A stretch of 29,868 bases of DNA from positions 1-29,868 of IMG/VR virus record IMGVR_UViG_3300022905_000047. One strand, 5' to 3'. Each line of letters opens with the position of its first letter. Position 1 is the first letter of the stretch. Both the position numbers and the translations under genes were made by a program. Positions 4,577 through 27,993 of the stretch are shown here, piece after piece. Origin of the DNA: a virus. The notes under the pieces were generated by a model, which was not told the origin of the DNA, ran no database searches, and saw only the letters and a program-made list of their open reading frames with translations.

Positions 4577-5950
4577 ATGGCAGCAATTATTACTGATACA
4601 CTGAGAAGACAAGCGGCAGAGACACTCTTAACCGATATTTTAAATACAACTGGTTCCAATAATTATTTTATTGGTGTCGGTAAATCGGATCAATACGACT
4701 CGAGTGATACAGTTGTAACACCAGTTAATTCTTTAAGAGAACAAAGAATAGCTAGAGCAAATCTTCAATCAGTAAAACAAATTACATCTGGTGGAGCATC
4801 ATTTGTGGTGCCAAGATATAATTGGGCATCCGGTACCGTATACTCTGGTTGGAGTGATACTTACGCAGATGTGCCAGCAAATACACATTATGTTCTTACA
4901 GAGGATAATGAAGTATATGTATGTCTTCAACAAGGACGTAATTCTTTAGGTGTTGCCGTTAACTCTATTGTGAAACCTAGTTATACGGATGCTGGTGTTA
5001 CACAGACTCAAGCATTCCAAACGGCCGATGGATATAGATGGAAATTCCTATATGCGTTGAGTCCAACAAAGGCAAATAATTTCTTATCCGCAAATTATTT
5101 ACCCACACAATTCATTGCTGATTCCGCCGGGTATCCAGGTTTAAACACATTTGAAGTTCAACAAGCCTTGATTAAACAATCGGCTATTGGTGGACAGATT
5201 TTGGGTGTATCAATTACAAATGCTGGTGCAGGATATGCCAGTGCACCAACCATTATTTTTAGAGGCAATGGTACTGGAGCACAAGCAACAGCAACCGTAA
5301 GTGGTGGTGCTATTGTAAAAATTGAAATGGATGATGAGAGTGGTTCGTTAGGTAGTGGTTATCTTTATAGCAGCATTGAATTCTCTGGTGGAAGTCCAAC
5401 AACCCCAGCAACTGCTAGACCCATTATTACACCAATGGTCGGCATTGGTTACGATCCAGTCAATGATTTGTTATCAACTTCTATTATGGTTGTTTCCAAG
5501 CCTTCAGGTACGGAATCTGGTGATTTCTTGGTTGGCCAAGACTTTAGACAAATTCTTTTGATGAAAAATGTCAAATGGAAAGACAGTGCTGATTTATATG
5601 ATGAAGTTTCTGGTAAAGCATTAAGAGCAATTAGAGTTGATAATGCCGGAACACTAGCTATTGATAATATTTTATCTGGTGATTCAGCAACTGCATATAT
5701 TGATCAAATCAATGGCACTACTGTATTTTATCATCAAAATGAAACTACTGGTTTTGGTATATTTGGTAATGGTGAGACGATTAGTGATGATGGTGGTGGT
5801 ACAGCAACAATTGTGAATGCTATTGATAGTACTGGTTGGGGTGGTCAAGTAGATGCATGGTCCGGAGATTTGTTATACATAGAGAATAGAGCTCGTATTC
5901 TAAGAGATGCTGCTCAAACTGAAGATATTAAAGTTATTCTTACATTCTAA
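4577..5950 (+). CDS. 8: Baseplate wedge subunit, gp8-like
   Basis: A 457-residue protein matching gp8 of marine T4-like phages. It starts MAAIITDTLRRQAAETLL and has NNYFIGVGKSDQY near residue 30, YNWASGTVYSGWSD near 95, EVYVCLQQG near 115 and DGYRWKFLYALSP near 155. In T4, gp8 is a dimer in each wedge that binds gp10, gp7 and gp6. Residues from about 210 form a glycine-rich beta region (ITNAGAGYASAPTIIFRG), an insertion often seen in marine versions, and the protein is longer than T4 gp8 (334). The leader AGGAAATAAAAAATG gives a good ribosome site; the same 15 bases recur before the gene at 25783. Confidence 0.82.
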   Translation: MAAIITDTLRRQAAETLLTDILNTTGSNNYFIGVGKSDQYDSSDTVVTPVNSLREQRIARANLQSVKQITSGGASFVVPRYNWASGTVYSGWSDTYADVPANTHYVLTEDNEVYVCLQQGRNSLGVAVNSIVKPSYTDAGVTQTQAFQTADGYRWKFLYALSPTKANNFLSANYLPTQFIADSAGYPGLNTFEVQQALIKQSAIGGQILGVSITNAGAGYASAPTIIFRGNGTGAQATATVSGGAIVKIEMDDESGSLGSGYLYSSIEFSGGSPTTPATARPIITPMVGIGYDPVNDLLSTSIMVVSKPSGTESGDFLVGQDFRQILLMKNVKWKDSADLYDEVSGKALRAIRVDNAGTLAIDNILSGDSATAYIDQINGTTVFYHQNETTGFGIFGNGETISDDGGGTATIVNAIDSTGWGGQVDAWSGDLLYIENRARILRDAAQTEDIKVILTF

Positions 5951-5961
5951 GGCAATTATAC

Positions 5962-8900
5962 ATGGCAACGACATTCACTTCCAACACATTTGCTAACGTC
6001 TATAAAGATGATTACCGCGATAGTGATAACTATTATAGAGTTCTATTCAACAGCGGTAAGACACTTCAAGCTAGAGAATTAACACAACTTCAAACTATTA
6101 TCCAATCAGAGATTGGCCGATTTGCTCGTAACATATTTAACGAAGGTGCTGTTGTTAGCCCTGGTGGTGTTACCGTAAATAATAGATATGAATATCTAAG
6201 ACTTGATACATCTATTAATCAATTACCAGCAGTTGATTTGGTTGGTGAGCAGTTCGTAACATCCGACACCAATATTACTGTTGAAGTATTGGAAGTTGTT
6301 GCCGCAGATGCTTTGACTGGTGATCCTGCAACTCTTTATATTAAGTATATTGATACGGCAGATGCTACTGCTAGTGATACAACAATTAGAATACCAAACG
6401 GTACTGACATCTCTAATGGTACATATACGCTCACTTTGGAAGCATCTGGCGCAACAGGTACTGGTACCATTGCTGCCGTGGCTAGTGGTGAATATTTTAC
6501 CAAAGATCACTTTGTATTTGCTGAAAAACAAACACATTTTATTAGTAAATATACAAGCACACCGACCGTTGATTTAGGTTTCCTTGTTACAGAAGACATT
6601 GTAACTGCAACTGATAATTCAGCTCTTTATGATAATCAAGGTGCTGTACCCAATACTGCAGCGCCAGGTGCTGATCGTTATAGAATTAAGCTTACACTTA
6701 CCACAAGGGATGAAGTAGATTCAGCAGACAATTTCTTGTTCATTGCTCGAGTAGTAAATGGTGTTGTTTCAAGTGAAGCAAATGGGACAACAGAATATAA
6801 TAAGATTAATGAATTATTGGCCCAACGCACTAGAGATGAATCTGGTGATTATATTGTTAATCCAATCACTGCAAGGTTTGAGGATTTAAATGATTCAAAC
6901 TTGACTTTAAATGTCTCAGGCGGTGTTGCCTATGTTGAAGGTTATCGTCTTGAATCACCAATTACAACACTCACAGTACCTAAGGCCTATACTTATACTT
7001 CGGTGGTCGGGGAAAATGTTGTTGCACAATATGGTAATTATGTAAATCAAGATTCAGATGGTGGATGTCGTGGTTTGCCAGGCATTAATAACTTTGAACA
7101 ACTGAACTTAAGAACAGGTAAAGGTTACGGTGGTAGTACTATCGGTACGGCCAGAGTAAGAGCAGTTGAACGTAATCAAAGTAAAATTAGACATTATCTC
7201 TTTGATATTCAAATGAATAGTGGTCAAAGTTTTGCATCTGTTAAAAGTATTGGACTTACTACTAGTTCATATTTTGATGTTGAGCAAACTGATGGCATTG
7301 TCTTGCTTCAAGAGACTGCAAATAATTCACTCCTATTTCCATTACCCAATACACGGCCGACGAGCAATGGTGTTACTGTAAATAGTCTTATCGTCCAAAG
7401 AAGATACGCATTTACATCAAGTGGTTCCGGAACCTATACATTATCTGCTGGTAGTTTTGGTGGTTCAAGTTTAACATTTACCGATACAGGTGATTGGATA
7501 ATCACAACATTGGATGGTAACATTTCAGCAACCACTGCTTCATTTGCTCTTGCTGGTTCACCAACAGGTACTACTGTTAACATTACAGGCCTTGCAAACT
7601 CAACAGCATATGAACTTATTGCTATGGTTGATGTTTCAACACCAACCGTAAGAGCAAAATCAGTTGTAACAAAAACATTGACTAAAGCATGGCCTACGGC
7701 AGCAGATTCTGATGGTAATGGTTTGCGTTGGTTGACATTGAATCGTACTGATGTTATTGATATTCTAAATGTAAAAGTAAATGATGCCAACGGCAGAGAT
7801 TTAACTGAAAACTTTATATTAGACAATGGTCAAAGAGATAATCTTTATGCACTCGGCCGATTAGTTGAACGTACTGGATTGACTGTACCAACTGGTGATG
7901 TGTATGTTCAATATCGTCATTTCCAACACGACCCTGGTCATTTCTTTAATGTAAATTCTTACGCCAGTATTAACTATAATCAAATTCCAAAATATCGTAA
8001 AAACAATGGTGAAGTTATTTCACTAACCGATGTTTTGGATTTTAGACCTGCTCAGGATTCTAGTGGTAGTTATATTGAAGATCAAGACTATATCTCATTA
8101 TTACCTCAGAATACAAATAACATTGATGTTGATGTTGATTACTACTTACCAAGACGTGATACACTTGTTATTAAACGAATTGAAAATGACATTAAAACAA
8201 ATAGGGCTGAGATAAAATATATCCAAGGTGTGCCTGATTTCCAACCAGCATATCCTCAGATTCCTTCTAGTTCAATGGCACTGTATAATTTTGAATTAAA
8301 TCCATATACAGTTACTGATTCAGACTTGACATCAACATTTGTTGACCACAAGCGTTATACGATGCAAGATATTGGCAGACTTGAGAAAAGAGTTTCCAAT
8401 CTTGAGAAATATACAACATTGAGTTTATTGGAAAACAGTACTGCAATCCAATTGGTTTTGGATTCTGCTGGTAATCCTAGAACAAAGTCAGGATTCTTAG
8501 CTGATAACTTTAGAGATACTTCTTTTGCCGAACCCGGTAATAGAAATAGATCATCAATTGATCCTGTTGATAATACATTAAATACACCTTTTATTGCTAA
8601 AAATATTAGATTGGTTTATGATTCTGATAATGGTAGCAATACGGTTCAACGTACTGGTGATTTGATTACGTTACCATATACAAATAATACATTGGTAAAT
8701 CAGAATCTTGCAACAGAGACAATGAATGTCAATCCATTTGCTGTTATTACACAAACTGGACATACCATTCTATCACCGGCCTCAGATGAATGGATTGAAA
8801 CAAGATACGTAACTGAAGTCATTAAGGATGGTGGTACTATTAGTAATGTGAGAGGTTCAGCCATGTCAGGTTGGACTTTTGTTGGTACTGATGTTACAAC

Positions 8901-10971
8901 TAGAAGTCTTGTATCTGATGATGTACTTCAGGTTGAAGTCTTACCTTGGATGAGATCTAAGAAAGTCCAATTTAAGACTATTGGATTAAGACCTAATACC
9001 AAATATTTCCCGTACTTTAATAATGTTGATGTTACCAATTGGTGTAGAGAGGAAACTACATTTGAACGTTTTAGTTCTACCGATACCGATTATGGTAACA
9101 AGTACTCTAAGAGCACTGCACACCCAGATGGTAGCACGACTTTAATTTCAAGTGCAACAGGTGAATTGATTGGTTCATTCTTTATTCCTTCAACTTCAAG
9201 CATTAGATTTAGAACAGGTCAGGGTGAATTTAAAATGCTTGATGTTTCTGGTAATAATGATGCTGGTGCTGTAACTTCAACTAGAGCATTATACACATCA
9301 ACAGGCACACTTGAGACAAGACAAAAGACATATAAGTCAACAAGACGAATCACCGGAATGTGGTCACCACCACCATCTGATAACGGTATGTGGTGTGATC
9401 CTTTGGCTCAAACTTTTATGGTTGATAGAGTAGAATATCCAAATGGTATGTTCTTGACTCAAGCAAGTGTTTATTTTTCTTCCAAGGATTCAGTCATTCC
9501 TGTGATATGTGAAATTGTTTCCGTTGATAATGGTTATCCATCACAAGAAATTATCCCTGGTGGCACTGCTTCTTTATTGCCTGCCAATATTAATATCCCA
9601 GCTAATACAAATAATATTGCATCAGTAAGGGCTGCGCCAAGTGTATTCACATTTGATGAGCCTGTTTTCTTATCACCCGGTAGAGAATATGCAATTGTAT
9701 TGAAAGCAGAAAGCACTGCCTATAATGTTTATGTTGCTAAGACATACGATTTTATATTAGGCACAACATCTGCTCGTGTAACAAGACAACCAACATTGGG
9801 CTCACTGTTTCAATCACAAAATGCTTCTACTTGGACTGCTGACCAAACACGTGACTTGATGTTTAAATTGCATAAAGCAACATTTGCATCAACAGCAACA
9901 GCATTGCTTGAGAATGGCCCACCACCAGAAGAATTGTTAAGTTATAATCCCATTCGCACCAATACTGGCGACTCTGATGTACATATTTACTTAGAAGGCC
10001 ACGGCTTTATCTACGGTGATATTGTAACTGTGTCTGATTTTGCCGAAGATAGTATTGGCGGTATTACTGCTGGTAGCATTAATGGTAATAGAGTTATTAC
10101 TGGTGTTGATTGGACCGGATTTACAATCGGTGCTGATTCACAAGCAGATACTACATTACGGGGTGGTGGCGATGGTATTATTGTTACCCAACAAGCACAT
10201 TTTGATGAATATATCCCAGTGATTGAAACTCTTTTGCCTGAAGCAACCAATGTTTCGGCTAGTGCTAAATTCACTTCAGGTGGTTCGTATGCCGGTTCTA
10301 AAAATAGAACTACAGGCACCAATACTAGAGCTAAGGCTTCCATATATTCACCAATCTCAGTTAATAGTGTTAATTATGCAACAGAACCTAAAGTTATTCT
10401 AACAAGAGCAAGTGAAACAAAATACTTATCTTCTGCTAAATCAGCAACAATCAAGCTTGATTTGGTGACGAATGATATTAATGTATCACCAGTTATTGAC
10501 TTGCAAAGAACATCACTTATTTTAACAGAGAATGTGATTGATAAACAAGATGCTGTATTAACATCAGGTTATAATGTGCCATTGGTATTTGTTGCAGAGA
10601 CTGACCCTACGGAAGGAACTACTGCTGCTAAACATATTACCAAACAAGTCACCTTGCAAGAACCGGGTGTTGGCCTTAAGATTCTATTGTCTGCAAATAG
10701 ACCAACCGAAGCAGACTTTGAAGTTTACTACAAAACAGGCACAGGTGATGATGTTTTGGATGACAAGACTTGGATTTTGGTTGGTAAGGAAGCAGAACTT
10801 CCTGCCGATAATGATAGAACAACTTATAGAGAATATGAATACTTGGCTGGTGGCATTGGTGGTACATTACCTCCATTCACAACATATCAAGTTAAGATTG
10901 TAATGACTTCTACTAATAGTTCTAGAGTTCCAAAGATTAAGGACTTAAGAATTATTGCTCTGGCAACATAA
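5962..10971 (+). CDS. Large virion protein, DUF4815 type
   Basis: This 1,669-residue protein is the second longest in the window. The N-terminus (FANVYKDDYRDSDNYYRVLF, then LQARELTQLQTIIQSEI and FNEGAVVSPGGVTV, residues 10-75) is the hallmark of the DUF4815 family of virion proteins in marine T4-like phages. Residues about 485-575 form a Gly/Thr/Ser-rich beta segment that looks like an inserted immunoglobulin or fibronectin-like domain. The C-terminal third holds a conserved block from about 1146 (DPLAQTFMVD, IPVICEIVSVDNGYP, EPVFLSPGREYAIVL, then LGSLFQSQNASTWTADQTRD). It is expected at the outer baseplate, next to gp8- and gp10-like parts. The stop overlaps the next ATG as TAATG. Confidence 0.78.
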   Translation: MATTFTSNTFANVYKDDYRDSDNYYRVLFNSGKTLQARELTQLQTIIQSEIGRFARNIFNEGAVVSPGGVTVNNRYEYLRLDTSINQLPAVDLVGEQFVTSDTNITVEVLEVVAADALTGDPATLYIKYIDTADATASDTTIRIPNGTDISNGTYTLTLEASGATGTGTIAAVASGEYFTKDHFVFAEKQTHFISKYTSTPTVDLGFLVTEDIVTATDNSALYDNQGAVPNTAAPGADRYRIKLTLTTRDEVDSADNFLFIARVVNGVVSSEANGTTEYNKINELLAQRTRDESGDYIVNPITARFEDLNDSNLTLNVSGGVAYVEGYRLESPITTLTVPKAYTYTSVVGENVVAQYGNYVNQDSDGGCRGLPGINNFEQLNLRTGKGYGGSTIGTARVRAVERNQSKIRHYLFDIQMNSGQSFASVKSIGLTTSSYFDVEQTDGIVLLQETANNSLLFPLPNTRPTSNGVTVNSLIVQRRYAFTSSGSGTYTLSAGSFGGSSLTFTDTGDWIITTLDGNISATTASFALAGSPTGTTVNITGLANSTAYELIAMVDVSTPTVRAKSVVTKTLTKAWPTAADSDGNGLRWLTLNRTDVIDILNVKVNDANGRDLTENFILDNGQRDNLYALGRLVERTGLTVPTGDVYVQYRHFQHDPGHFFNVNSYASINYNQIPKYRKNNGEVISLTDVLDFRPAQDSSGSYIEDQDYISLLPQNTNNIDVDVDYYLPRRDTLVIKRIENDIKTNRAEIKYIQGVPDFQPAYPQIPSSSMALYNFELNPYTVTDSDLTSTFVDHKRYTMQDIGRLEKRVSNLEKYTTLSLLENSTAIQLVLDSAGNPRTKSGFLADNFRDTSFAEPGNRNRSSIDPVDNTLNTPFIAKNIRLVYDSDNGSNTVQRTGDLITLPYTNNTLVNQNLATETMNVNPFAVITQTGHTILSPASDEWIETRYVTEVIKDGGTISNVRGSAMSGWTFVGTDVTTRSLVSDDVLQVEVLPWMRSKKVQFKTIGLRPNTKYFPYFNNVDVTNWCREETTFERFSSTDTDYGNKYSKSTAHPDGSTTLISSATGELIGSFFIPSTSSIRFRTGQGEFKMLDVSGNNDAGAVTSTRALYTSTGTLETRQKTYKSTRRITGMWSPPPSDNGMWCDPLAQTFMVDRVEYPNGMFLTQASVYFSSKDSVIPVICEIVSVDNGYPSQEIIPGGTASLLPANINIPANTNNIASVRAAPSVFTFDEPVFLSPGREYAIVLKAESTAYNVYVAKTYDFILGTTSARVTRQPTLGSLFQSQNASTWTADQTRDLMFKLHKATFASTATALLENGPPPEELLSYNPIRTNTGDSDVHIYLEGHGFIYGDIVTVSDFAEDSIGGITAGSINGNRVITGVDWTGFTIGADSQADTTLRGGGDGIIVTQQAHFDEYIPVIETLLPEATNVSASAKFTSGGSYAGSKNRTTGTNTRAKASIYSPISVNSVNYATEPKVILTRASETKYLSSAKSATIKLDLVTNDINVSPVIDLQRTSLILTENVIDKQDAVLTSGYNVPLVFVAETDPTEGTTAAKHITKQVTLQEPGVGLKILLSANRPTEADFEVYYKTGTGDDVLDDKTWILVGKEAELPADNDRTTYREYEYLAGGIGGTLPPFTTYQVKIVMTSTNSSRVPKIKDLRIIALAT

Positions 10972-11664: not shown

Positions 11665-12633
11665 ATGGCAGTGAGACAACCACTATATTGGGATGCCGGA
11701 AGTGGTTCCATTAAAACAATGACTACTGGTCAAGTTAATAATATCATTAGCCAAGCCATTTATCAATACTCATTAAACCCATCAGTAACGTTAAGTGTAG
11801 TTTCTTCAGGCGGCAATCTTGGTACTATTTCTGATACCCGTAAAAAAGCTGGTGAATATTTAACTCGAGCAGGTGATGGTACTAGTGGTGATGATGGTGC
11901 TGCTGAATATCCACCAGAATCCCTTACACAAGAACCACAAACAGTAACAGTCAATTATGCTAAAATAAGCCAAACAGTTGCATCAGTATCAGCGCCGACA
12001 TCCGGTGCTGAAGGATCATATCCTGGTTATTATTATAATGGTGGCATTAGGCCAATGTCAAATACTGATGTGTATGATACATTTATTGAACCAGCAATAA
12101 ATAGTTTAACATTGGGTAGTCTAACTTCTAGTGGCCAAGGTGGTACATATCGTATTCATACATCATCTGGTGGTTTAGGTGGTCACACACTCGTAAGCGC
12201 AACTGCAGTATTTACAGATACACGTGCAGATACCTCATTATATACTGCTGCTGCAATACCTGAAGCTTTAGACCAACCAATAACAATTACTAATTTTTAT
12301 TTGTATCGCATCGATGGTACTGCAAGTAGTTATATTCAACCATTGAGAGTAACGGCTTCAAATAGCAATTTGCAAGTGTTTAGTACTTCACTGTTTAATA
12401 CATTATTGCAAAATCATGTAAGATATGCAGCGGCCGCAGCAAGTGGATTAAATATTAGATATAGTTATAGTACTGGCAATAATAGAGGTTCTGGTATGAC
12501 TAATACTATATTAAACGGTAGTGGTAATTATCAAACAAGATTTGTAAATTCTAATGATTATCGTGCTCAAGAATTCCCTAACGGTACTGCAGTGACTGCA
12601 AATACATATTATTTGAAAATTAATAAATCATAA
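11665..12633 (+). CDS. Virion structural protein
   Basis: A 322-residue protein starting three bases after the previous stop. The N-terminal block (RQPLYWDAGSGSIKTMTTGQ, IYQYSLNPSVTLSVV, GTISDTRKKAG) is a recognisable opening of a virion protein common in T4-like cyanophages and pelagiphages. The GSYPGYYYNGGIRPMSNTDV segment near residue 120 looks like a second, weaker copy of that opening (YW-x-GSG-I--M), suggesting an internal duplication. The rest is beta-rich. It is probably a baseplate or tail-surface component, inferred from context and from where relatives are found. Confidence 0.68.
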   Translation: MAVRQPLYWDAGSGSIKTMTTGQVNNIISQAIYQYSLNPSVTLSVVSSGGNLGTISDTRKKAGEYLTRAGDGTSGDDGAAEYPPESLTQEPQTVTVNYAKISQTVASVSAPTSGAEGSYPGYYYNGGIRPMSNTDVYDTFIEPAINSLTLGSLTSSGQGGTYRIHTSSGGLGGHTLVSATAVFTDTRADTSLYTAAAIPEALDQPITITNFYLYRIDGTASSYIQPLRVTASNSNLQVFSTSLFNTLLQNHVRYAAAAASGLNIRYSYSTGNNRGSGMTNTILNGSGNYQTRFVNSNDYRAQEFPNGTAVTANTYYLKINKS

Positions 12634-12645
12634 GGCAACATAAAA

Positions 12646-13218
12646 ATGCAAGGCTATAATTTACTCACAGCTCATTTTTCTAACAACGAACGCACCACGG
12701 TTGAAGTCTATTGGTGTAATGATGAAGGCGAAGATATTCAAGTTGAATATATTGAGGCCAATAAAAAAGATGCTGCTTGGCAAGATTTAATTACTCATAT
12801 TAGTATTGATCAATTACATGAAAATACATATAAGCACATCCGTGAACAGAATGATATATTTGAAAAGCAAGTTATTGACATTGCTAAAAAACGTGGACTG
12901 GTTCATGATATCAATACTGATAGGGGTGCTGCATTAAAACTTACTGCTGAAACCTTATTCAGAGAACTTAATGAAGAAGAACTTAAAGAATATTTGTTTG
13001 TCTATAAGCTTAATTTGTTTGAGAATGAAGTAATTAAGAATAGTAAAGATAGAACAGGTAAAGCGGCAATTCGTAAAGCAACTACTATTGTGGAAGCCAC
13101 CATGGCAGCGTGTACGTTATATCAAAAAGAATTAAGTAAGAAAATATCCACCCCAATAGAATCAGTCAATGAAACACCACCAGAATCAATTAATGAAATA
13201 GTTACGCCACCAACCTGA
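12646..13218 (+). CDS. Uncharacterised late protein, helical
   Basis: A 190-residue, mostly helical and charged protein that I do not recognise. It opens with a small beta part (NLLTAHFSNNERTTVEVYW), then long helices (about residues 35-165), and ends in a low-complexity Pro/Glu/Thr tail in which a PIESVNE/PPESINE unit is repeated twice. An AAGG ribosome site precedes the ATG. It is the last + strand gene of the block; its 3' end overlaps the convergent - strand gene by 33 bases, and its transcript should end at the terminator about 85 bases further on. Virion part or tail-assembly helper are both possible. Confidence 0.6.
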   Translation: MQGYNLLTAHFSNNERTTVEVYWCNDEGEDIQVEYIEANKKDAAWQDLITHISIDQLHENTYKHIREQNDIFEKQVIDIAKKRGLVHDINTDRGAALKLTAETLFRELNEEELKEYLFVYKLNLFENEVIKNSKDRTGKAAIRKATTIVEATMAACTLYQKELSKKISTPIESVNETPPESINEIVTPPT

Positions 13219-13746
13219 TTGTGTCATATATTCATAACGTTGATTGAATAGGTAAACATTAAAATCTTTTGTTTCTTCAGTCACAGTTTGAAATGAACAG
13301 AACCCCTTTACGAAAGTATTGGGGTTTTTTATTTCGTACAAATATTGATCCATTCCTTTGCTATACTTAAACATATAGTACTCTGGGTCAGAAGCAAATT
13401 CATCATATACATCTGACCTATCACCCGACCAAGATAAGATTGATGAATTTAATGGTGTGTGCCAGGCATCTCTCCACCATGCGCTACACACTGTCAACTC
13501 GTCTCTTAAAAATTGATTACAATCGCCTTTGATTAAAACGTCAAGATCAAAGTAAATATTAATACCATCGCGGTATCGGTCAAACATTTGTAATTTGTTA
13601 AATACCTGCAATTCGTATTCATTATCACGAATGACTTCAAATGAATCATACTCCAAACTAGAGTATGTGTCAATCATATGCTTTAGATTATTTTCATACC
13701 ACTGAGAGTATTTGTCTCCAGTGCGAACACATATTACTCGTATCAT
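13186..13746 (-). CDS. Glycosyltransferase-like protein, short GT-A type
   Basis: A 186-residue protein. It opens with a beta strand (IRVICVRTGDKYSQWYENN) and has NIYFDLDVLIKG at residues 63-74, a DxD-type metal and nucleotide-sugar site (D67-L-D69). NSSILSW near 100 and KGMDQYLYEI near 130-139 match the acceptor-side and DQ positions of a GT-A family common in marine phages and bacteria. It is shorter than most relatives. Its ATG overlaps the stop of the radical SAM gene (ATGA), so the two are coupled. A + strand terminator is embedded antisense in codons about 139-149 (KNPNTFVKGFC). Donor and acceptor sugars are not deducible. Confidence 0.68.
   Translation of the reverse strand: MIRVICVRTGDKYSQWYENNLKHMIDTYSSLEYDSFEVIRDNEYELQVFNKLQMFDRYRDGINIYFDLDVLIKGDCNQFLRDELTVCSAWWRDAWHTPLNSSILSWSGDRSDVYDEFASDPEYYMFKYSKGMDQYLYEIKNPNTFVKGFCSFQTVTEETKDFNVYLFNQRYEYMTQSGWWRNYFIN
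13301..13330 (+). terminator. Rho-independent terminator for the + strand late block
   Basis: AACCCC (13301-13306) pairs with GGGGTT (13321-13326). Inside, TAC pairs with GTA around a GAAA tetraloop, with a two-base T/T internal mismatch on each side. A run of six T follows (13325-13330). On the other strand no T-run follows, so the signal works in one direction. It lies about 85 bases after the stop of the 12646 gene, within the coding sequence of the opposite-strand gene. Confidence 0.82.
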
Positions 13747-14798
13747 ATTGGTGTGATTGGAATATATTCTCTAAAATAATCGGGCATTTTAATTCTACTG
13801 GAACAATGATTGACACATTGTTTTATGGGTGTTTCAGATTCCCAACTATCAGCCAACTTAGTTTTAAACCATTCATGATTGATTATATTACTTAATGAAT
13901 TATTAAATATATTTAAGTTTTTATTATCCTTAGTGTATTCTTTAAGTAATGGTGTGTTCATAAACCAGGGTGATTTTCTATCATAGGCATTACCAAAGTA
14001 GCAACAGGAGTGTACTTGTCCGTCAAATGAAATGTTTATCTTATTTTGTTTTTGCCAAGAACAATTAATAGTATTACTAAATTTTTCTATTTGTTCCTGA
14101 TAGTTTTTATTGGTAATTGGATCATCTGCTTTTTCCAATATTTGTTTATTACCATCAGCATCAATAAACTCAAATGTTTTTATATCTGTAGGTGAATCAA
14201 ACCTATCACTATAAACCCAGGTATGTAGAATTGCACCATATTCTTTTACTAGATTAGCAATATCATTCAAGTACGGTTGATTGTGTTTAAACACAATTGT
14301 CTGGACATGAGCCTTGGATTTTGTTTCAGAGTATGCTTTCATATTATTTAAAACTTTTTGCAAGTCAGTACCTTGTCTATATTTTGAATGCATCTCTTGT
14401 GTAGTACCATCAACATCAAAATTGATTATTAAATCATATCTACCGGCTTTTGATAACAAACCAAATTCCCACCACCAAGTTTCATCTCTAATAGATCCAT
14501 TAGTATCAATGGCAACTCTACACAATGGATTGTGTTCAAAGATATATTCAACCATATTATATGTGTGATTGCTCATCATTGCATCACCCCAAGTTGGACA
14601 AAATGAAATACTTGTAATTAATTTTAAATCAACTGGACTAAAAGCACGCTTGAAATCATCAAACGTCCATTGAGTTAATGGTAACCAATCTACTTTATCA
14701 AGACCCTCCGGATTAGTTCTGTGACACATAGGGCATTTAGCATTACAGTACGTTGTAGTATCTAATTGTATTTGTATGCCATGTTTATTCCAGCTCAT
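13743..14798 (-). CDS. Radical SAM enzyme with twitch/SPASM-like C-terminus
   Basis: A 351-residue protein. C18-x3-C22-x2-C25 in YCNAKCPMC is the canonical radical SAM cluster motif. GDAMM (71-75) stands at the GGE-like SAM-binding position, and INFDVDGTTQEMHSKYRQG (125-143) matches the beta-strand/DG motif of SPASM-type enzymes. The C-terminus has C246-x13-G-x4-C265, with C266, then C328-x3-C332, fitting an auxiliary Fe-S cluster of the twitch type (a short SPASM). Relatives modify peptides, proteins or sugars by radical chemistry. There is no RiPP precursor next to it; the neighbours are glycosyltransferases. A GAG before the ATG is the only ribosome-site hint. Confidence 0.85.
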   Translation of the reverse strand: MSWNKHGIQIQLDTTTYCNAKCPMCHRTNPEGLDKVDWLPLTQWTFDDFKRAFSPVDLKLITSISFCPTWGDAMMSNHTYNMVEYIFEHNPLCRVAIDTNGSIRDETWWWEFGLLSKAGRYDLIINFDVDGTTQEMHSKYRQGTDLQKVLNNMKAYSETKSKAHVQTIVFKHNQPYLNDIANLVKEYGAILHTWVYSDRFDSPTDIKTFEFIDADGNKQILEKADDPITNKNYQEQIEKFSNTINCSWQKQNKINISFDGQVHSCCYFGNAYDRKSPWFMNTPLLKEYTKDNKNLNIFNNSLSNIINHEWFKTKLADSWESETPIKQCVNHCSSRIKMPDYFREYIPITPI

Positions 14799-14854
14799 AT
14801 AATTCTCATTTGTAATTTTTTTGTAAGGATTTAATGTTATAATACACTTTAGTG

Positions 14855-15628
14855 TTAATCAAATGATTTACCAAATTCTTTTCTTACGTGGTGTAAAAGA
14901 TAACCACCTGCAGAAATTTCTGGATTAAGATCATCCAATAAAAAATTCCAAGGCAATCCAATATTAGTAAATGGTATATTATATCTTTCTATGATATAGG
15001 TAAAATATACTTCATTATTACTTTTCCAATGCCGGTTTATCTCAACCGGATATAAATTATCTTCGATTGCCATTTGTAATGTTTTGGCTATCTCATCAAA
15101 TCTATTATTAAAATCTAATAGCTCAATTGATTTTTTATTGCCACCGACTACACCTGTATTAATTATTCCGTTCGAACCATTCAACCCATCTAATTCTAAC
15201 ATTGCATTTTTAGCACAAGTTTTACAATAGATATTCATTGAATCAAAATTATTATATGATAATGATTTAACTAATCTATCTCTATCGGGTGTCCTGTCTA
15301 TATTGTATGCACATATAGTATTTAAATCCCAGACATCAAAGAAATTTAAATTTGTATTTGGTACTACATCAAAATCAAGATAAAGAACCTCATCATAATC
15401 TTTACTTAACTCTTCAAGCAAAAATATTTTTTCAAATTGTATATCATCATATGCTGTTGTTCTTGTTTCAAATAACATATATGATGCGCCACAGTTAACA
15501 GCATAATCTCTTTGCGCTTTATGTAAATGTTGTTTATATTTCTTGAATTGACTAAGTTTAAAATCTGATGATGATTTATGACCTGGATCCAACTCATCAG
15601 TATAAATGCTATAGACTATTCTTTTCAT
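14855..15628 (-). CDS. Glycosyltransferase-like protein B (GT-A fold)
   Basis: A 257-residue paralog of the gene just upstream on the same strand. Both open MKRI(I/V)YS(L/I)Y, share E(I/V)LYLDFDVVP with a DxD-type site (D85-F-D87 here), then FF-(A/V)WDL, an NTG(I/V)(I/V)G loop (157-162) and a C-terminal H-V-(N/R)K-F box (246-252). These features are those of GT8-like GT-A glycosyltransferases, in which DxD binds the metal and sugar nucleotide and the late His helps phosphate binding. An extra C135-x2-C138 pair is present only in this copy. Its start overlaps the end of copy A by 20 bases. A 56-base gap without a gene separates it from the radical SAM gene. Confidence 0.72.
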   Translation of the reverse strand: MKRIVYSIYTDELDPGHKSSSDFKLSQFKKYKQHLHKAQRDYAVNCGASYMLFETRTTAYDDIQFEKIFLLEELSKDYDEVLYLDFDVVPNTNLNFFDVWDLNTICAYNIDRTPDRDRLVKSLSYNNFDSMNIYCKTCAKNAMLELDGLNGSNGIINTGVVGGNKKSIELLDFNNRFDEIAKTLQMAIEDNLYPVEINRHWKSNNEVYFTYIIERYNIPFTNIGLPWNFLLDDLNPEISAGGYLLHHVRKEFGKSFD

Positions 15629-16493
15629 ACCAAGATTTTACAAAATCAAATTTTTTATTAATTACATGACATAATGTAGTGCCGGGTTTTATATAATCCC
15701 ATCGGTCAAAGAAGTGATGCCATTTTTCATCTAGCCATTGAATTTTCACTTCATTCATATTTATTTTATAACTCCAAATGGTTTCATTATCGTAACCAAA
15801 CATCCGACGTATTTCCTCTGGCCACATATCATTTTCATTCTTTAATTCATTCATTAATTCTAATGTGTCATTAAAGTCATCCCAGTAAGCCAGTTTCATT
15901 AAATCATTTGATGATGCTCCAATAATACCAGTATTAAACACGTCATTGTCACCAGATAGGTTAGAATCCATTAGCATTGCTCGGCAGTTCCAATATTTTG
16001 CCGTTGGTGATCGAATAGATGACGGATGTTCTTTATTTGTTATTTCATGGAATTTATATAATACATGTGAATTGTTTTGCAGAATTGCAATACCATTATT
16101 TTGTAAATCCCATGCTTCAAAGAAGTTATCATTATTTAATGGTACTACATCAAAGTCTAAGTAAAGTATTTCATCGTATTCTTTAGCCAATTCATAAAGT
16201 AAATGAATTTTATAAAAGTTTACAATATTATAAGCAGTAATTTGTGGATAGGTTTCATTAAAGAATTTTTTATAATTCTGCCATTTCTCATCATTTTCAT
16301 ATAAACGATATTCGATGCCAATAGTATTTGCATATTCAATCTGTCGTTCTTTAAGCCACGGATAGTATTCCTGAAATAAGAGCTTAGTCTTTTCAGTTTT
16401 TGGCAGTTGATCTGGATCCCAAGTATAAGGTCTTTGGTAATCCAATTCAGCTTTATCAAGGTCAATGTATAAACTATAAATGATGCGTTTCAT
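15609..16493 (-). CDS. Glycosyltransferase-like protein A (GT-A fold)
   Basis: A 294-residue protein, first gene of the - strand unit. Key features: MKRIIYSLYIDLDKAEL at the start, DEILYLDFDVVPLN with DxD at D113-F-D115, FNTGIIG at 186-192 and a terminal HVINKKFDF at 276-284. Compared with copy B it has about 35 more residues, mainly before and just after the DxD. Relatives occur in marine phages and in bacterial surface-glycan loci. The nearest promoter-like box on the - strand is CATAAATA at 16551-16558, 57 bases before the ATG. No Shine-Dalgarno is visible, as for most genes of this island. Confidence 0.72.
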   Translation of the reverse strand: MKRIIYSLYIDLDKAELDYQRPYTWDPDQLPKTEKTKLLFQEYYPWLKERQIEYANTIGIEYRLYENDEKWQNYKKFFNETYPQITAYNIVNFYKIHLLYELAKEYDEILYLDFDVVPLNNDNFFEAWDLQNNGIAILQNNSHVLYKFHEITNKEHPSSIRSPTAKYWNCRAMLMDSNLSGDNDVFNTGIIGASSNDLMKLAYWDDFNDTLELMNELKNENDMWPEEIRRMFGYDNETIWSYKINMNEVKIQWLDEKWHHFFDRWDYIKPGTTLCHVINKKFDFVKSWYEKNSL

Positions 16494-16500
16494 AATAAAT

Positions 16501-17079
16501 ATGTATATGAATTATAAAAATATTTTAAATGCAATTGATCGTTGTGATAATATTTATGATGTAAAGACTATCGTAAATTCTATTAATGATAATCAAGTTC
16601 AAAGTAAAGAATGGTTAATTGAAAACTGCTTTGAGTACTTTGATATGTTTAATGATGCAAAAATACTTATTGCTGCTGGCTGGTATGGTCTTTTAGGTGA
16701 TATGCTTTACCGTGGTGAATATTATTCTGATATTACTATATGTGATATGGATCCGAAGTGTAGAGAATTTGGTAAAAGATTGTATCCACACTTAAAACAT
16801 ATTACACAACGAATGAGTGAGATTGATGTTTCTGATTATGATCAAATCATTTGCACTGCTTGTGAGCATATTAGCGATGATGAATTAAATGAATTTTTAT
16901 CTAAAAAGAAACGTAGTGCTTTAACTGTACTACAAAGTAATGATTACTTCGGAATTGATGGACATATTAATTGTAAAAATTCATTAAAAGACTTTGAAAA
17001 TTCAGTCAATTTACAAATTATAAAGACCTTGGAACTACAAACCGAAAAATACAAACGATTTATGATTATAGGTTACTAA
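16501..17079 (+). CDS. Class I SAM methyltransferase-like protein
   Basis: About 192 residues from the ATG at 16501; ATGs at 16480, 16483 and 16507 are in the same frame. I prefer 16501 or 16507 because the earlier ones would overlap the divergent glycosyltransferase. KILIAAGWYGLLGDML stands at motif I (the SAM glycine loop, here with a GWYG variant), ICDMDP is the acidic end of strand 2, and DYDQIICTACEHISDDEL fits motif IV. LQSNDYFGIDGHINC and the final KRFMIIGY are also seen in a family of marine phage methyltransferases. The substrate is unknown. It is the only + strand gene of the island and is as AT-rich as the rest. No ribosome site is clear. Confidence 0.72.
   Translation: MYMNYKNILNAIDRCDNIYDVKTIVNSINDNQVQSKEWLIENCFEYFDMFNDAKILIAAGWYGLLGDMLYRGEYYSDITICDMDPKCREFGKRLYPHLKHITQRMSEIDVSDYDQIICTACEHISDDELNEFLSKKKRSALTVLQSNDYFGIDGHINCKNSLKDFENSVNLQIIKTLELQTEKYKRFMIIGY
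16551..16558 (-). promoter_or_regulatory. Possible late promoter for the - strand island (CATAAATA)
   Basis: On the - strand this reads CATAAATA, one base off the T4 late consensus at a position that marine T4-like phages are reported (from memory) to tolerate. It lies 57 bases before the ATG of glycosyltransferase A, the same distance as the + strand box at 17092 from its gene. It is inside the methyltransferase coding sequence. Chance occurrence is quite possible. Confidence 0.3.
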
Positions 17080-17091
17080 ACTTATTTAATG

Positions 17092-17099
17092 TATAAATA
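17092..17099 (+). promoter_or_regulatory. T4-type late promoter (TATAAATA)
   Basis: A perfect TATAAATA in the 77-base gap between the methyltransferase gene and the 17157 gene. It resumes + strand late transcription after the island. The predicted leader begins near the G-rich stretch at 17104 and can fold: GGGCGT (17110-17115) with ACGTCC (17123-17128) around a seven-base loop, including one G-U pair. A good AAGGA ribosome site (17146-17150) follows. Confidence 0.7.
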
Positions 17100-17156: not shown

Positions 17157-17510
17157 ATGGCCACCTATGAAGAATTTAGCATCGATCAGGGTGCAGACGT
17201 CACCATTGAGCTACAATGTGTTGACATTACCGGCGCAAAGAAAGATTTGTCAGACCACTCGGTTTCTGCCAAAATGAAAAAGAATTACAACAGTGATTCT
17301 GCCGATACTCTTACATTTACCACAGGCATTAGTGCAGACCCCACGGATGGTATTCTAACACTTAGCCTCACAAATACCCAGACAGATACTTTAAAAGCCG
17401 GTAGATATGTTTACGATGTGGAATTGTCCTTCCTTGACAGTTCAGGTGATACCATTATTGAAAGAATCCTTGAAGGTAGAATTCAGGTAACACCATCAGT
17501 CACAAAGTAA
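17157..17510 (+). CDS. Small baseplate/fibre protein, BppU-N-like
   Basis: A 117-residue beta-sandwich-like protein. FSIDQGADVTIELQCVDITG at the start, then DLSDHSVSAKMKKNYNS, LSLTNTQTDTLKAGRYVYDV and IERILEGRIQVTP, follow the pattern of the N-terminal domain of siphophage BppU-type upper baseplate proteins and of short virion proteins that precede long fibres in marine myoviruses. It is first after the late promoter at 17092 and ends seven bases before the large fibre gene. It may be the fibre's attachment or collar protein; this is inferred from order only. Confidence 0.65.
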   Translation: MATYEEFSIDQGADVTIELQCVDITGAKKDLSDHSVSAKMKKNYNSDSADTLTFTTGISADPTDGILTLSLTNTQTDTLKAGRYVYDVELSFLDSSGDTIIERILEGRIQVTPSVTK

Positions 17511-24020: not shown

Positions 24021-24617
24021 ATGGCAAGTGAAATAACAGTACAAACAATCAGAGGTCCGGCCTCTGGTGCGAATGCAAATAAGATTTTAATTCCTGCCGG
24101 ACAGACACTCGATGCGAGTAGTGGATTTATTCCTCCTGCAGGTAGTGTGTTGCAGGTTGTTCAGGGTTATCTGGGAACAACTGCTTCAGCCTCTACTAGT
24201 TCTAATACAACAGTAGACACTGGACTACAAGCAAGTATTACGCCATCTAGCGCAAGCTCAAAAATATTAGTTCAATACAATGTATTTTTAGGTCAATACG
24301 ACTCATACAATATGTTTGTTCGTATTTTAAGAGATTCAACATATATAGGAAACGGAACATCAGAAGGTGGAAGACCAGTTGGGAACGCGGTTGCAAACAA
24401 CTACCATTCAACTAATGATGGATATTCAATAGCTCCAACTTCAAACGTTTATTTAGACAGCCCAAACACTACATCTAGTATAACTTATAAGATACAAATG
24501 GGCTGTTATGGTGGGAATCTTGTTTATATCAATAGATCGCGTATTTTTCAACTTTTGATAGGAGACTACGACACAATTCCCTTATCCACAATAACACTTA
24601 TGGAGATTGCAGGATGA
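24021..24617 (+). CDS. Fibre-tip paralog 1 (AGSV-QVV / MEIAG family)
   Basis: A 198-residue member of a family present four times here. Shared landmarks are AGSVLQVVQ (near 40), ITPSSASSKILV (near 73), a central variable part, LDSPNTTSSITYKIQ (near 144) and the end ITLMEIAG. The N-terminal 35 residues (EITVQTIRGPASGANANKI) differ from the other copies and are a common head of marine phage fibres. The pattern (conserved frame, variable middle) suits a receptor-binding or decoration domain with beta-sandwich fold; this is an inference. The stop overlaps the next ATG. Confidence 0.68.
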   Translation: MASEITVQTIRGPASGANANKILIPAGQTLDASSGFIPPAGSVLQVVQGYLGTTASASTSSNTTVDTGLQASITPSSASSKILVQYNVFLGQYDSYNMFVRILRDSTYIGNGTSEGGRPVGNAVANNYHSTNDGYSIAPTSNVYLDSPNTTSSITYKIQMGCYGGNLVYINRSRIFQLLIGDYDTIPLSTITLMEIAG

Positions 24618-25162
24618 GTATCGCATATGTAAATCAAATTCTTCCTAAGGACACAGCACAGGTTTCCATTCCTAACTTCGCTCCTATTGCGGGTAGTGTG
24701 ATTCAGGTTGTTAGTGTAACTAAGACAGATACATTCACTACAACCAGCGGAAGTATGGTGGATATTACCGGTTTATCAGCCACAATTACACCATCATCCT
24801 CTAGTAGCAAGATTCTTATTACCGGTAGTGTTTGTTGGGGCAATAGTGACGCTGCTGCTCCTTATTTGGCCGCGATGCAACTTGTAAGAAATTCAACAGC
24901 TATTTGTATTGCTGATGCAGACGGTTCTCGTGGTCGCTTCACAATAGGCGCTCAGGGTATTTGTAATACTGACAATACAGTATTTGCTCCACTGAACTTT
25001 TTAGATTCCCCAGCAACTACATCCGCAACTACATACAAAATGCAGGGACAAGTGGAAAGCGGTAGGACTTTATGGATTAACAAAAGTGCTGAAACTGACG
25101 GTAATCAGCCTATTTCTGGGCGCTTTGTTTCAACCATTACAGTTATGGAGATTGCAGGATGA
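24614..25162 (+). CDS. Fibre-tip paralog 2 (AGSV-QVV / MEIAG family)
   Basis: A 182-residue paralog. It has AGSVIQVVS, a TTSGSMVDITGLSATITPSS strand pair, SSSKILITG, LDSPATTSATTYKMQ and ITVMEIAG. Its N-terminus is short (MSIAYVNQILPKDTAQVSIP) and unlike that of paralog 1. Residues about 75-135, between the conserved blocks, differ fully in sequence from the other copies, as expected for a diversified binding surface. It starts inside the last codons of paralog 1 and ends in the same junction box. Confidence 0.68.
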   Translation: MSIAYVNQILPKDTAQVSIPNFAPIAGSVIQVVSVTKTDTFTTTSGSMVDITGLSATITPSSSSSKILITGSVCWGNSDAAAPYLAAMQLVRNSTAICIADADGSRGRFTIGAQGICNTDNTVFAPLNFLDSPATTSATTYKMQGQVESGRTLWINKSAETDGNQPISGRFVSTITVMEIAG

Positions 25163-25734
25163 CCAGTATAATTAAAGTTGATGCCATCCAAATGAGTAAT
25201 GGTGATACTCCATCTATATCCGATATAGGGTTCTCCGCACTTACAGCGACCGATATGCCAGCGGGTAGTGTGTTGCAGGTTGTTAGTGCAACTAAGACCA
25301 ATAGTTTTACTACAACATCTGTTAGCTATATACCAATTACTGGATTGACTGTAACTATTACGCCAACATCAACATCAAATAAAGTTCTTGTATCTTTTTA
25401 TTTAAATGCAGGTATTTCTGGCGCTGCGGGTGCTATACGCATTTATCGCAATGATACGGCTATAGCAATTGGAGATCCAATTAGTGAACCTGATAATAAC
25501 AGAATGGCGGTAAACGTATATAACGGAGGAGATGATACTAACTCAACACCTAATGTTTGTATGTCCGTACTAGATACTCCTAATACAACATCTGCAACTA
25601 CTTATACTTTAAGAGCTGGTTGTGTTCAAGGTAGTGGTACTATAGTTATAAACGATCAAACATCTCAAGTTAGAGGTCAAAGCTATTCAGCCGTTACTGC
25701 GTCAACAATTACAGCAATGGAGATTTCAGGATGA
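25159..25734 (+). CDS. Fibre-tip paralog 3 (AGSV-QVV / MEISG family)
   Basis: A 191-residue paralog with AGSVLQVVSATKTNSFTTTS, ITPTSTSNKVLV, LDTPNTTSATTYTLR and ITAMEISG. It shares with paralog 2 the stretch around QVVS-TKT-FTTTS even at DNA level, so these two are probably the closest pair in the N-terminal half. The head (TSIIKVDAIQMSNGDTPSIS) is again distinct. The next reading frame, beginning in its junction box, is the truncated MNH gene. Confidence 0.68.
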   Translation: MTSIIKVDAIQMSNGDTPSISDIGFSALTATDMPAGSVLQVVSATKTNSFTTTSVSYIPITGLTVTITPTSTSNKVLVSFYLNAGISGAAGAIRIYRNDTAIAIGDPISEPDNNRMAVNVYNGGDDTNSTPNVCMSVLDTPNTTSATTYTLRAGCVQGSGTIVINDQTSQVRGQSYSAVTASTITAMEISG

Positions 25735-26663: not shown

Positions 26664-26882
26664 ATGAGTATTGTATTAAACGGAAATGGTTACATCACTG
26701 GTGCTGCTGGTGTTGGTAAAGGAGGCAGTGAAACAAATGTTGCTTTCTATGAGACTGATAACACTATCACTAGCGACTACACAATCGGCACAAACAAGAA
26801 CGCTATGAGTATAGGTGATATTGCAGTTGCCACGGGTGTCACGGTTACTGTTCCAACTGGTTCTTTCTGGGTGGTTGTATGA
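26664..26882 (+). CDS. Minimal fibre-tip protein (NAMS module only)
   Basis: A 72-residue protein with an AAAGGA ribosome site. After a short head (SIVLNGNGYITGAAGVGKGG) nearly the whole chain is the tip module: NVAFYETDNTITSDYTI, then NKNAMSIGDIAVATGVTVTV and a GSFWVVV end. It may be a free-standing alternative tip, or the 3' part of a former longer fibre. The stop overlaps the next ATG (ATGA). Confidence 0.62.
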   Translation: MSIVLNGNGYITGAAGVGKGGSETNVAFYETDNTITSDYTIGTNKNAMSIGDIAVATGVTVTVPTGSFWVVV

Positions 26883-27229
26883 GCGGAAATATTAACTTTA
26901 ACGGATGGATTAACGATGATGGCACAGAGAACTACAAGTGTAGGGCTTGGGTAAATTTCAATGGGCAAGGGACTGTGGCGATTAGGGCGGCAGGGAATGT
27001 GAGTAGCATTACTGATAATGGTACTGGTGATTACACAGTTAACTTTACCAATGCGATGGTGGATGCTAATTATGCTGTGTCAGGGATAACCACTTTAAAT
27101 CGTAGGTTACAACTTCAGAGCACTACATTAACGGCAACCCAAACAACAACCGATGTAAAACTTAGAACAACAAATGAAGTAACTACTGTACTTGACAACG
27201 AGGTGGTGTCAGTCACCATCTTCCGCTAG
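26879..27229 (+). CDS. Fibre-tip paralog 1 (KAWVNFNG family)
   Basis: A 116-residue member of a three-copy family. The core, about residues 20-66, is RAWVNFNGQGTVAIRAAGNV, then SSITDNGTGDYTVNFTNAM; the end is VVSVTIF. Residues between are unlike the other copies. This core is widespread in phage and prophage fibre tips of many bacteria. The head is only 20 residues (SGNINFNGWINDDGTENYKC). At DNA level the core is closest to that of the third copy (27625), suggesting recent duplication or exchange. It begins the GC-richer part of the window. Confidence 0.68.
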   Translation: MSGNINFNGWINDDGTENYKCRAWVNFNGQGTVAIRAAGNVSSITDNGTGDYTVNFTNAMVDANYAVSGITTLNRRLQLQSTTLTATQTTTDVKLRTTNEVTTVLDNEVVSVTIFR

Positions 27230-27837
27230 GAGCTAATATGTCAACAATTAAAACAGAAACACTAAGCACCCCTAGCAACGCAACCGTCCCAGTAGACACA
27301 GTGGTTAACGGGACAGCAAAGGCTTGGGTTAACTTTAACGGAACAGGTACGGTGGCTATTCGTAGGGCTTTTAATGTTAGCTCTATTACTGATAATGGTA
27401 CTGGAATTTACGCTGTTAATTTGACAACAGCCATGCCAGATACGTCATATGCGGCGTTGGCAACTGCTAGTTATGCAGGGACTGCAAACGTCTATGCGCA
27501 AGCACCTGCTTATGGACCCGGAGGAAGCAACACAACTTCTATTGTTCGTGTCGGTATTATCTCTGGCACATCAGTTGCTGATGCAGACATCATCAATGTC
27601 ACCATTTTCAGCTAAAGGAATCCCATGAGTACAACAATAAGCGGAACAAATGGTGTTACCTTTCCAGATAGCACCTCAATGCAAACAGGTCAACAGGCTT
27701 GTAAGGCGTGGGTTAACTTTAATGGCAGCGGGACTGTGGCGATTAGGGAGTCATACAATGTGAGCAGTATTACTGATAATGGCACTGGTGATTATACAAT
27801 TAACTTTACGACTGCGATGGTAAATGCTAATTATGCA
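26945..27837 (+). repeat. KAWVNFNG core repeated in three genes
   Basis: Bases about 26945-27062, 27323-27436 and 27708-27822 encode the shared core. Copies 1 and 3 share runs such as GGGACTGTGGCGATTAGGG; copy 2 is more diverged. Flanks differ, so similarity rises and falls sharply at the core edges. Confidence 0.65.
27238..27615 (+). CDS. Fibre-tip paralog 2 (KAWVNFNG family)
   Basis: A 125-residue paralog with AKAWVNFNGTGTVAIRRAFN, VSSITDNGTGIYAVNLTTAM and a terminal IINVTIF. The head, STIKTETLSTPSNATVPVDT, is a common fibre head found on many phage tips; the region after the core (YAALATASYAGTANVYAQAP) is specific to this copy. A strong AGGAGC ribosome site precedes the ATG, independent of the upstream gene. 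Role inferred: alternative tip or decoration protein. Confidence 0.68.
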   Translation: MSTIKTETLSTPSNATVPVDTVVNGTAKAWVNFNGTGTVAIRRAFNVSSITDNGTGIYAVNLTTAMPDTSYAALATASYAGTANVYAQAPAYGPGGSNTTSIVRVGIISGTSVADADIINVTIFS

Positions 27838-27993
27838 GTCGTAAGTGGACCTGCTGGAACATACAATGACTTTAATGCAATGGCTACACAATCTGATATT
27901 CCTACAGTTTCTTCAGTTAAACATCGTTGGAGAACCGAAAATGGTTCCACTGTTGACCCTGTGTATTGCCATGTCGCCATCTTCAGCAACTAA
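27625..27993 (+). CDS. Fibre-tip paralog 3 (KAWVNFNG family)
   Basis: A 122-residue paralog with CKAWVNFNGSGTVAIRESYN, VSSITDNGTGDYTINFTTAM and a final CHVAIFSN. The head, STTISGTNGVTFPDSTSMQT, is another widespread fibre head. The variable region (VVSGPAGTYNDFNAMATQSD) differs from both other copies. An AAAGGA ribosome site precedes the ATG. The chaperone-like pair at 28011 and 28193 follows after a short gap. Confidence 0.68.
   Translation: MSTTISGTNGVTFPDSTSMQTGQQACKAWVNFNGSGTVAIRESYNVSSITDNGTGDYTINFTTAMVNANYAVVSGPAGTYNDFNAMATQSDIPTVSSVKHRWRTENGSTVDPVYCHVAIFSN

Follow-up and report, generated by a model that had tools for sequence, protein, structure and literature searches.

The DNA stretch analysed here (the window) is the whole of virus record IMGVR_UViG_3300022905_000047, 29,868 bases on one strand, and its gene content is that of a T4-like marine myovirus. 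Between its baseplate and tail fibre genes lies an AT-rich island of five genes, A to E, best explained as a short version of a modular locus for glycosylation and glycan tailoring, found where T4-like marine phages have their host recognition region. Open reading frames (ORFs) were called mechanically; many of the related contigs are fragments, and several gene names used in the scripts are labels, not functions. The island genes, and the small gene on their left, are as follows.

12646..13218, plus strand: 12646 protein, small, conserved and flanking the island (alignment A10, 19 rows)
13186-13746, minus strand: gene A, predicted small GT-A-fold glycosyltransferase (invariant DLD; alignment A8; AlphaFold and Foldseek)
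13743-14798, minus strand: gene B, predicted radical S-adenosylmethionine (SAM)/SPASM protein (Cys motifs; weak Pfam matches; alignment A4)
14855-15628, minus strand: gene C, predicted GT8-type glycosyltransferase (Pfam Glyco_transf_8; alignment A1)
15609-16493, minus strand: gene D, predicted GT8-type glycosyltransferase, paralogue of C (alignment A1)
16480-17079, plus strand: ORF of gene E, predicted class I SAM-dependent methyltransferase, probable start at 16507 (alignments A3 and A7; AlphaFold and Foldseek)

An initial annotation, made from the sequence alone, had placed five genes at 13186-17079, four on the minus strand and one diverging from them on the plus strand, and ORFs do lie there. 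It had also read three glycosyltransferases, a radical SAM enzyme and a methyltransferase in this block, families that are borne out by motifs, Pfam, homology and structural models. Genes D-C-B-A are tightly packed on the minus strand (D and C overlap by 20 nucleotides (nt), B and A by 4 nt), E diverges from D, and the 3' end of the 12646 gene meets gene A tail to tail in an overlap of 33 nt. Translation of E probably begins at the ATG at 16507, because relatives start with MNYKNIL.

Genes C, D and A are predicted to encode three soluble nucleotide-sugar glycosyltransferases. Gene C matches Pfam Glyco_transf_8 just over the cut-off (1.9e-5, 24.8 bits, cut-off 24.3) and carries DFD, NTG and H...K motifs. 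Gene D, 31% identical to C, has no direct Pfam match, and a D-type relative in locus L007 scores 27.4 bits against Pfam GT8. Across 14 C- and D-type sequences (alignment A1), DxD, N-T-(G) and the C-terminal His/Lys are kept, with D113/D115, N187-T188 and H276 invariant; the marks of GT8 (profile match, DxD, N-x-G and C-terminal His) are found in both genes, the profile match by way of C and L007. Genes A, D and E have no Pfam match over cut-off. In gene A, D67-L-D69 is invariant among 34 relatives (alignment A8), and its AlphaFold model (predicted local distance difference test, pLDDT, 96) adopts a GT-A fold. Foldseek returned 62 PDB matches for this model at E<=0.001, and among the matches listed all are glycosyltransferases, with pneumococcal GlyE first, A64R of PBCV-1 (2p6w) second, and LgtC, glycogenin and others also represented; A64R has the best two-way TM-score (0.68/0.62) among them. 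Gene A is classed by its GT-A fold and not as GT8, because a profile comparison with C and D supports the DxD segment alone (probability 30%, E 6e-4). The products of A, C and D are acidic (isoelectric points (pI) of 4.7-5.1), and no membrane-crossing segment is predicted in any of the five island proteins.

Gene E is confidently predicted to have a class I methyltransferase fold, a fold that also serves nicotianamine and spermidine synthases. Its AlphaFold model (pLDDT 94) is matched by Foldseek, at a probability of 1.00, to many class I methyltransferases, so that the models of both A and E bear the folds that the initial annotation had proposed to look for. The conserved motifs of E are unusual (GGWxG, DxDP, T-x-x-E-H, QSN and H-x-N); in alignment A7, W68 and G70 are invariant, and D89 and D91 nearly so. 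In a related locus (L008:3240-4610), a single ORF of 456 residues fuses a GT-A domain with a methyltransferase domain, and A and E are therefore considered to be functionally linked. Relatives of E were also sought in genomes with alignment A9, alignment A3 being too diverse, and at least 231 loci were found; the 80 that were kept come mostly from rhizobia and other Hyphomicrobiales. In the bacterial relatives examined (L241-L243 and L249, from rhizobia and other proteobacteria), a large ATP-binding cassette (ABC) transporter gene adjoins the E relative and three glycosyltransferase genes lie opposite. This neighbourhood is uncharacterised and conserved in bacteria, and it lends circumstantial support to a role in glycoconjugates.

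The same genes recur together in other viruses. A scan with the C/D profile found at least 329 viral loci, and among the window and the 80 loci kept, many of them on cut contigs, a GT-A gene is present in 71 of 81 and a methyltransferase in 69 of 81. Raw counts of this kind overstate independence, because identical or near-identical loci recur (L010/L011, L012/L075 and others), and the key survey was deduplicated. It was made independently of the enzymes, starting from the structural gene at 11665 and defining distinct loci by 95% identity of one protein; its reach is that of profile and single-sequence searches. In 48 distinct loci the contig shows two or more genes past the 12646 gene; 46 of these 48 have core genes within four genes, and 42 have a glycosyltransferase. 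The exceptions, L168 and L177 (and L180), show an empty state, in which the locus continues to two genes that resemble by eye the T4 neck proteins gp13/gp14. Phage C48C1 was also considered as an empty site and rejected, since genes judged by eye to be DxD glycosyltransferase-like and Asp-hydroxylase-like, without a family match, stand at the same place. Viral contigs L095 and L173, at the least, repeat the order E / D-C-B-A / 12646, and the five-gene set, whose co-occurrence the initial annotation had asked to be checked, is widespread and not confined to the window. Phage-like contigs inside metagenome-assembled genomes (L239, L240 and L257), found in the scan for E, bear the same cluster. 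Sequence, predicted structures and comparison show that the two glycosyltransferase types and the methyltransferase form a conserved core, and the set did not come together by chance.

Around this core the loci vary in size. Extended relatives also contain PP-loop, nitroreductase, Asp-hydroxylase, aminotransferase and desaturase genes, together with several radical SAM genes. Additions of this sort (PP-loop, nitroreductase, desaturase and so on) are also seen in natural-product clusters and, with the weak matches of B to peptide and cofactor maturases, they would suit an island whose product is a diffusible small molecule or a cofactor in place of a virion or envelope glycoconjugate. Such a role is very improbable: neither a precursor-peptide gene nor an exporter was recognised, and the minimal forms L076, L077 and L102 consist of glycosyltransferases alone, which argues for a glycan rather than a small molecule. 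A second type of cluster is present beside other tail genes of marine phages (L013-L072, for example L020:2162-16599). It holds several glycosyltransferase-like genes and four to six radical SAM genes, one of which is immediately followed by an E-type methyltransferase gene; an Asp-hydroxylase, a PP-loop protein and an SGNH hydrolase are encoded there too.

Gene B is the variable member of the island. Its product has a CxxxCxxC motif (C18, C22 and C25; residues 18-25) and CX13GX4C in the SPASM region; it matches Pfam SPASM just over the cut-off (2.7e-4, 21.6 bits, cut-off 21.5) and Pfam Radical_SAM below it (3e-5, 24.7 bits, cut-off 29.5). NCBIfam scores to W_rSAM_matur, AlbA and MoaA are all weak, and no NCBIfam equivalog cut-off is reached. 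Ahead of B lies a short element.

14837..14856, minus strand: intercistronic leader AACACTAAAGTGTATTATAA, with the inverted repeat ACACT-AA-AGTGT

This leader is common to the window, its nearest relative L012 and the close relative L079, with small differences at its end, and it precedes different cassettes in the three; its core motif was found in 7 of 318 loci, namely the window itself and six of its nearest clade. L012 is without gene B; in the 203 nt that separate its A and C, some 50 codons of a carbamoyltransferase-like gene survive in frame as a remnant. In L079 this gene is complete (287 residues) and followed in the slot by an SGNH-type gene; "carbamoyltransferase-like" is a name given by eye from an HDAS motif, and an NCBIfam search with the 287-residue protein gave no match. 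Other relatives have different radical SAM genes between A and C. L002 has radical SAM genes related to B, and behind these come an epimerase gene and one that is dehydrogenase-like. Because the genes behind the shared leader are exchanged among the window, L012 and L079, B is placed in a replaceable slot within a conserved frame; it fills an exchangeable site between C and A, in place of the carbamoyltransferase-like/SGNH pair. Exchange of this kind has a parallel in Campylobacter phages CP220 and CPt10, in which radical SAM modules swap as units and a metabolic role was proposed (PMC2853527). In tblastn searches of named phages, Campylobacter phages alone match B, at ~32% identity over half of its length.

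The surroundings of the island place it in a region of known type. It lies between baseplate and fibre genes, as the initial annotation had stated; a structural gene that served as the anchor of the survey precedes it, and it ends at a fibre-assembly gene.

484-927: gp25, upstream of the island
928-2760: gp6, upstream of the island
4577-5950: gp8-type gene, upstream of the island
5962-10971: VrlC-type gene, upstream of the island, named from synteny with an annotated gene of phage Mosig
11665..12633, plus strand: s11665, upstream structural protein and locus anchor, adjoining the island in nearly all relatives
17157..17510, plus strand: L-shaped tail fibre assembly-like protein (PHROG 1084, 1.7e-22; PHROG 3304, 1e-13), the right boundary

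Among named phages, gp6 is best matched by Phage C48C1 (47%), then by Melnitz, HTVC008M and Mosig. A PHROG search matched nothing to the s11665 protein, and PHROG and NCBIfam searches assigned no family to the 12646 protein, which in the window has a Pro/Thr/Glu-rich C-terminal extension of ~23 residues that overlaps gene A and is absent from the aligned relatives. The G+C content (GC) of 13219-17079 is 30.1% (genes 27.5-34.2%) compared with 36.2% and 39.0% in the 5-kilobase (kb) flanks, so the island is AT-rich, as first claimed, and the 25-28% GC then given is somewhat too low. Low GC is not confined to the island, since gp6 and the 2757 gene of the window stand at just 32-33%; structural genes are less AT-rich than island genes in 97 of 99 related loci.

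According to a 2020 description (PMC7029224), the host recognition cluster (HRC) of pelagimyophages, and the corresponding variable region of cyanomyophages, lie at the same place: they follow VrlC in the tail and fibre region, ahead of the neck gene gp14, and contain GT8 enzymes, radical SAM cassettes and genes for tail fibres. Modification of the host O-chain was suggested. In the window, a VrlC-type gene stands before the island and fibre genes after it, gp14 itself lying outside the window; C and D are of GT8 type, and B is a variable radical SAM/SPASM gene, absent from L012. The locus is therefore taken to belong to this already known type, the window holding a short version in which there is a single radical SAM gene. 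The initial annotation put the set forward as the best candidate for a little-described system, which is no more than partly right: the HRC with its GT8 enzymes and radical SAM cassettes is published (PMC7029224), and Mosig has a larger version. In the isolate Pelagibacter phage Mosig EXVC030M (MT647606, 60.9-71.3 kb), A, D and E have homologues (42%, 44% and 27%, respectively) that stand beside a 12646 homologue in a much larger cluster, which also has a carbamoyltransferase, several radical SAM genes, a nitroreductase and an aminotransferase, and in which the gene order differs from that of the window. The glycosyltransferase/methyltransferase core, the fusion of the two, the cassette slot and the epimerase in the structural operon do not appear in the accessible text of PMC7029224. 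New here are the defined core, the enzyme-independent survey, the fusion, the slot with its remnant, the promoter evidence and the count of membrane proteins.

Expression was approached through T4-type late promoters, of which two positions in the window are relevant.

16475..16482, plus strand: TATAAATG, candidate late promoter 32 nt before the probable start of E, a putative single-site variant
17092..17099, plus strand: TATAAATA, T4-type late promoter ahead of the fibre-assembly gene

Since TATAAATA is no more frequent in the window than chance would have it (4 observed, 4.7 by chance), it is informative solely by its position relative to homologous genes. Ahead of fibre-assembly gene homologues it is found in sense orientation in 34 of 56 cases and in antisense in 6 of 56, and of 28 divergent E/D pairs, 15 have it 17-39 nt ahead of E. 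A sigma-70 scan showed no enrichment (27 vs 31.6) and no promoter for D, and the upstream sequences of D share no promoter by eye. Of 51 distinct loci, 25 have their first core gene codirectional with the structural genes, and in three the run is unbroken to the fibre-assembly gene. In 23 of 76 loci, an SDR-type gene on the same strand separates the structural gene from the 12646 gene, and two of these SDR-type genes are nucleoside diphosphate (NDP)-sugar epimerases by Pfam PF01370 (1e-27 and 6e-25). Four large records near the window's group contain a uridine diphosphate (UDP)-sugar dehydrogenase over cut-off. The best reading of these positions is that the module is partly late-expressed.

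A literature search found no experiment on any of these proteins, and to our knowledge no biochemistry is known for them. From the predicted families, C, D and A would use NDP-sugars of host and phage to assemble a short glycan, step by step and in the cytoplasm, E would methylate it, and B could add a further radical modification to the sugar or to an acceptor peptide. The likeliest acceptor would be a virion protein of the adjacent tail and fibre module, and the adhesive end of the particle would then bear a lineage-specific glycan. Of the role that the initial annotation proposed, the building and tailoring of a sugar is well supported, and a virion protein as target is the best reading. 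It is favoured because late promoters precede E in relatives, an epimerase lies in the structural operon, the island keeps a constant place beside the 12646 gene, and a viral capsid glycosyltransferase is the second-ranked fold of gene A. That enzyme, A64R, acts on the major capsid protein of PBCV-1 and shares fold and size with A, and both are viral; the two are 14% identical and belong to different virus realms, and A64R alone is known to act on a virion protein. Phage-coded glycans on virion subunits are also described for mycobacteriophages (Freeman 2023, as cited in PMC12619734), which are different phages.

The enzymes may, on the other hand, act on the host surface. The glycosyltransferases, E and B would then modify the lipopolysaccharide (LPS) core or O-chain during infection and block adsorption of competitors or re-adsorption of progeny, as proposed for the same region in PMC7029224. 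LPS core enzymes fall within GT8, LgtC is among the Foldseek matches of A, and part of the island genes are oriented against the late operon. From the 12646 gene to the fibre-assembly gene, the loci hold 300 distinct genes in all; a transmembrane or signal segment is predicted for about 10 of their products, by eye desaturases, a tricarboxylate-transporter-like protein and short exported proteins, and among those ~10 no flippase, polymerase, priming glycosyltransferase or transporter of a Wzx/Wzy or ABC-dependent O-antigen pathway was recognised. A lipid-linked exported polysaccharide is therefore unlikely, and an acceptor in the cytosol is favoured; modification of the LPS core in the cytoplasm is still conceivable. 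The glycosyltransferases are without transmembrane segments and are not basic, and the late promoters before E and the epimerase gene within the structural operon also speak against a host-surface role. That role is rather unlikely overall, with core LPS as the main and serious rival target.

Several findings weigh against glycosylation of the virion. No late promoter is recognisable for D-C-B-A on the minus strand of the window, and LgtC, a GT8 enzyme that acts on LPS, is matched by A as well; a shared fold leaves the choice of acceptor open. The position of the island counts for little by itself, because host recognition regions gather unrelated genes. A comparison of distances between the glycosyltransferases and neighbouring structural proteins gave rho values of 0.04-0.43, with no clear signal either way. 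On balance, the chances that the acceptor is a virion protein seem roughly even, and the fuller proposal, in which a tail or fibre protein is glycosylated and tailored by a soluble module expressed in part late, may be as well right as wrong.

DNA is a further conceivable target, with glycosyltransferases acting on hydroxymethylated phage bases and E, B and the carbamoyltransferase serving as additional hypermodification enzymes. A PF00303 protein is encoded in four of eight large island-bearing records, all possibly incomplete, and three such proteins have RSNDVV(F/Y)GYKNDYAW, in which by-eye alignment shows Asp in place of the Asn that marks thymidylate synthases, as in deoxycytidine monophosphate (dCMP) hydroxymethylases. 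DNA glycosyltransferases are known from viral metagenomes (Pyle 2024, as cited in PMC12619734). This target is nonetheless improbable: the other four records (177, 166, 141 and 129 kb) have the island and no PF00303 match (T4-type DNA glucosyltransferases were not searched for separately), the island lies in the tail region away from replication genes, and late promoters precede E in relatives. PF00303 proteins with the motif RSNDVVFGYKNDYAW/RSNDVVYGYKNDYAW lie at L155:1441-2355, L156:1357-2004 and L157:1441-2139 and are possibly dCMP hydroxymethylases. The PF00303 gene is preceded by a UDP-sugar dehydrogenase-type gene in L155 and L156 and has a dCMP deaminase-like neighbour in L155 and L157.

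Returning to glycosylation of the virion, a bolder form is put forward tentatively, as doubtful though worth stating: T4-like marine phages of this group would have a near-obligatory modular system in the tail-fibre region, which decorates the phages' own adhesion proteins with a short glycan bearing methyl and radical-SAM modifications. If so, the virion glycotype would differ from lineage to lineage through exchange of tailoring cassettes around a constant glycosyltransferase/methyltransferase core, and the particle surface would be diversified chemically, beyond fibre sequence, in phages of a type that infects some of the most abundant marine bacteria. The survey replaces a vague "auxiliary metabolic gene (AMG)/LPS" annotation by a defined core, an insertion slot and a cultivated phage (Mosig).

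Two other origins or roles of the island were considered and rejected. Searches for signs of a mobile element found no tRNA, no Rfam match and no convincing flanking repeat, and PADLOC gave no meaningful match to anti-phage defence. Further along the window, the fibre region holds two sets of three tandem paralogues each, at 24021-25734 (~182-198 residues) and 26879-27993 (~116-125 residues), which suggests recent duplication of fibre parts.

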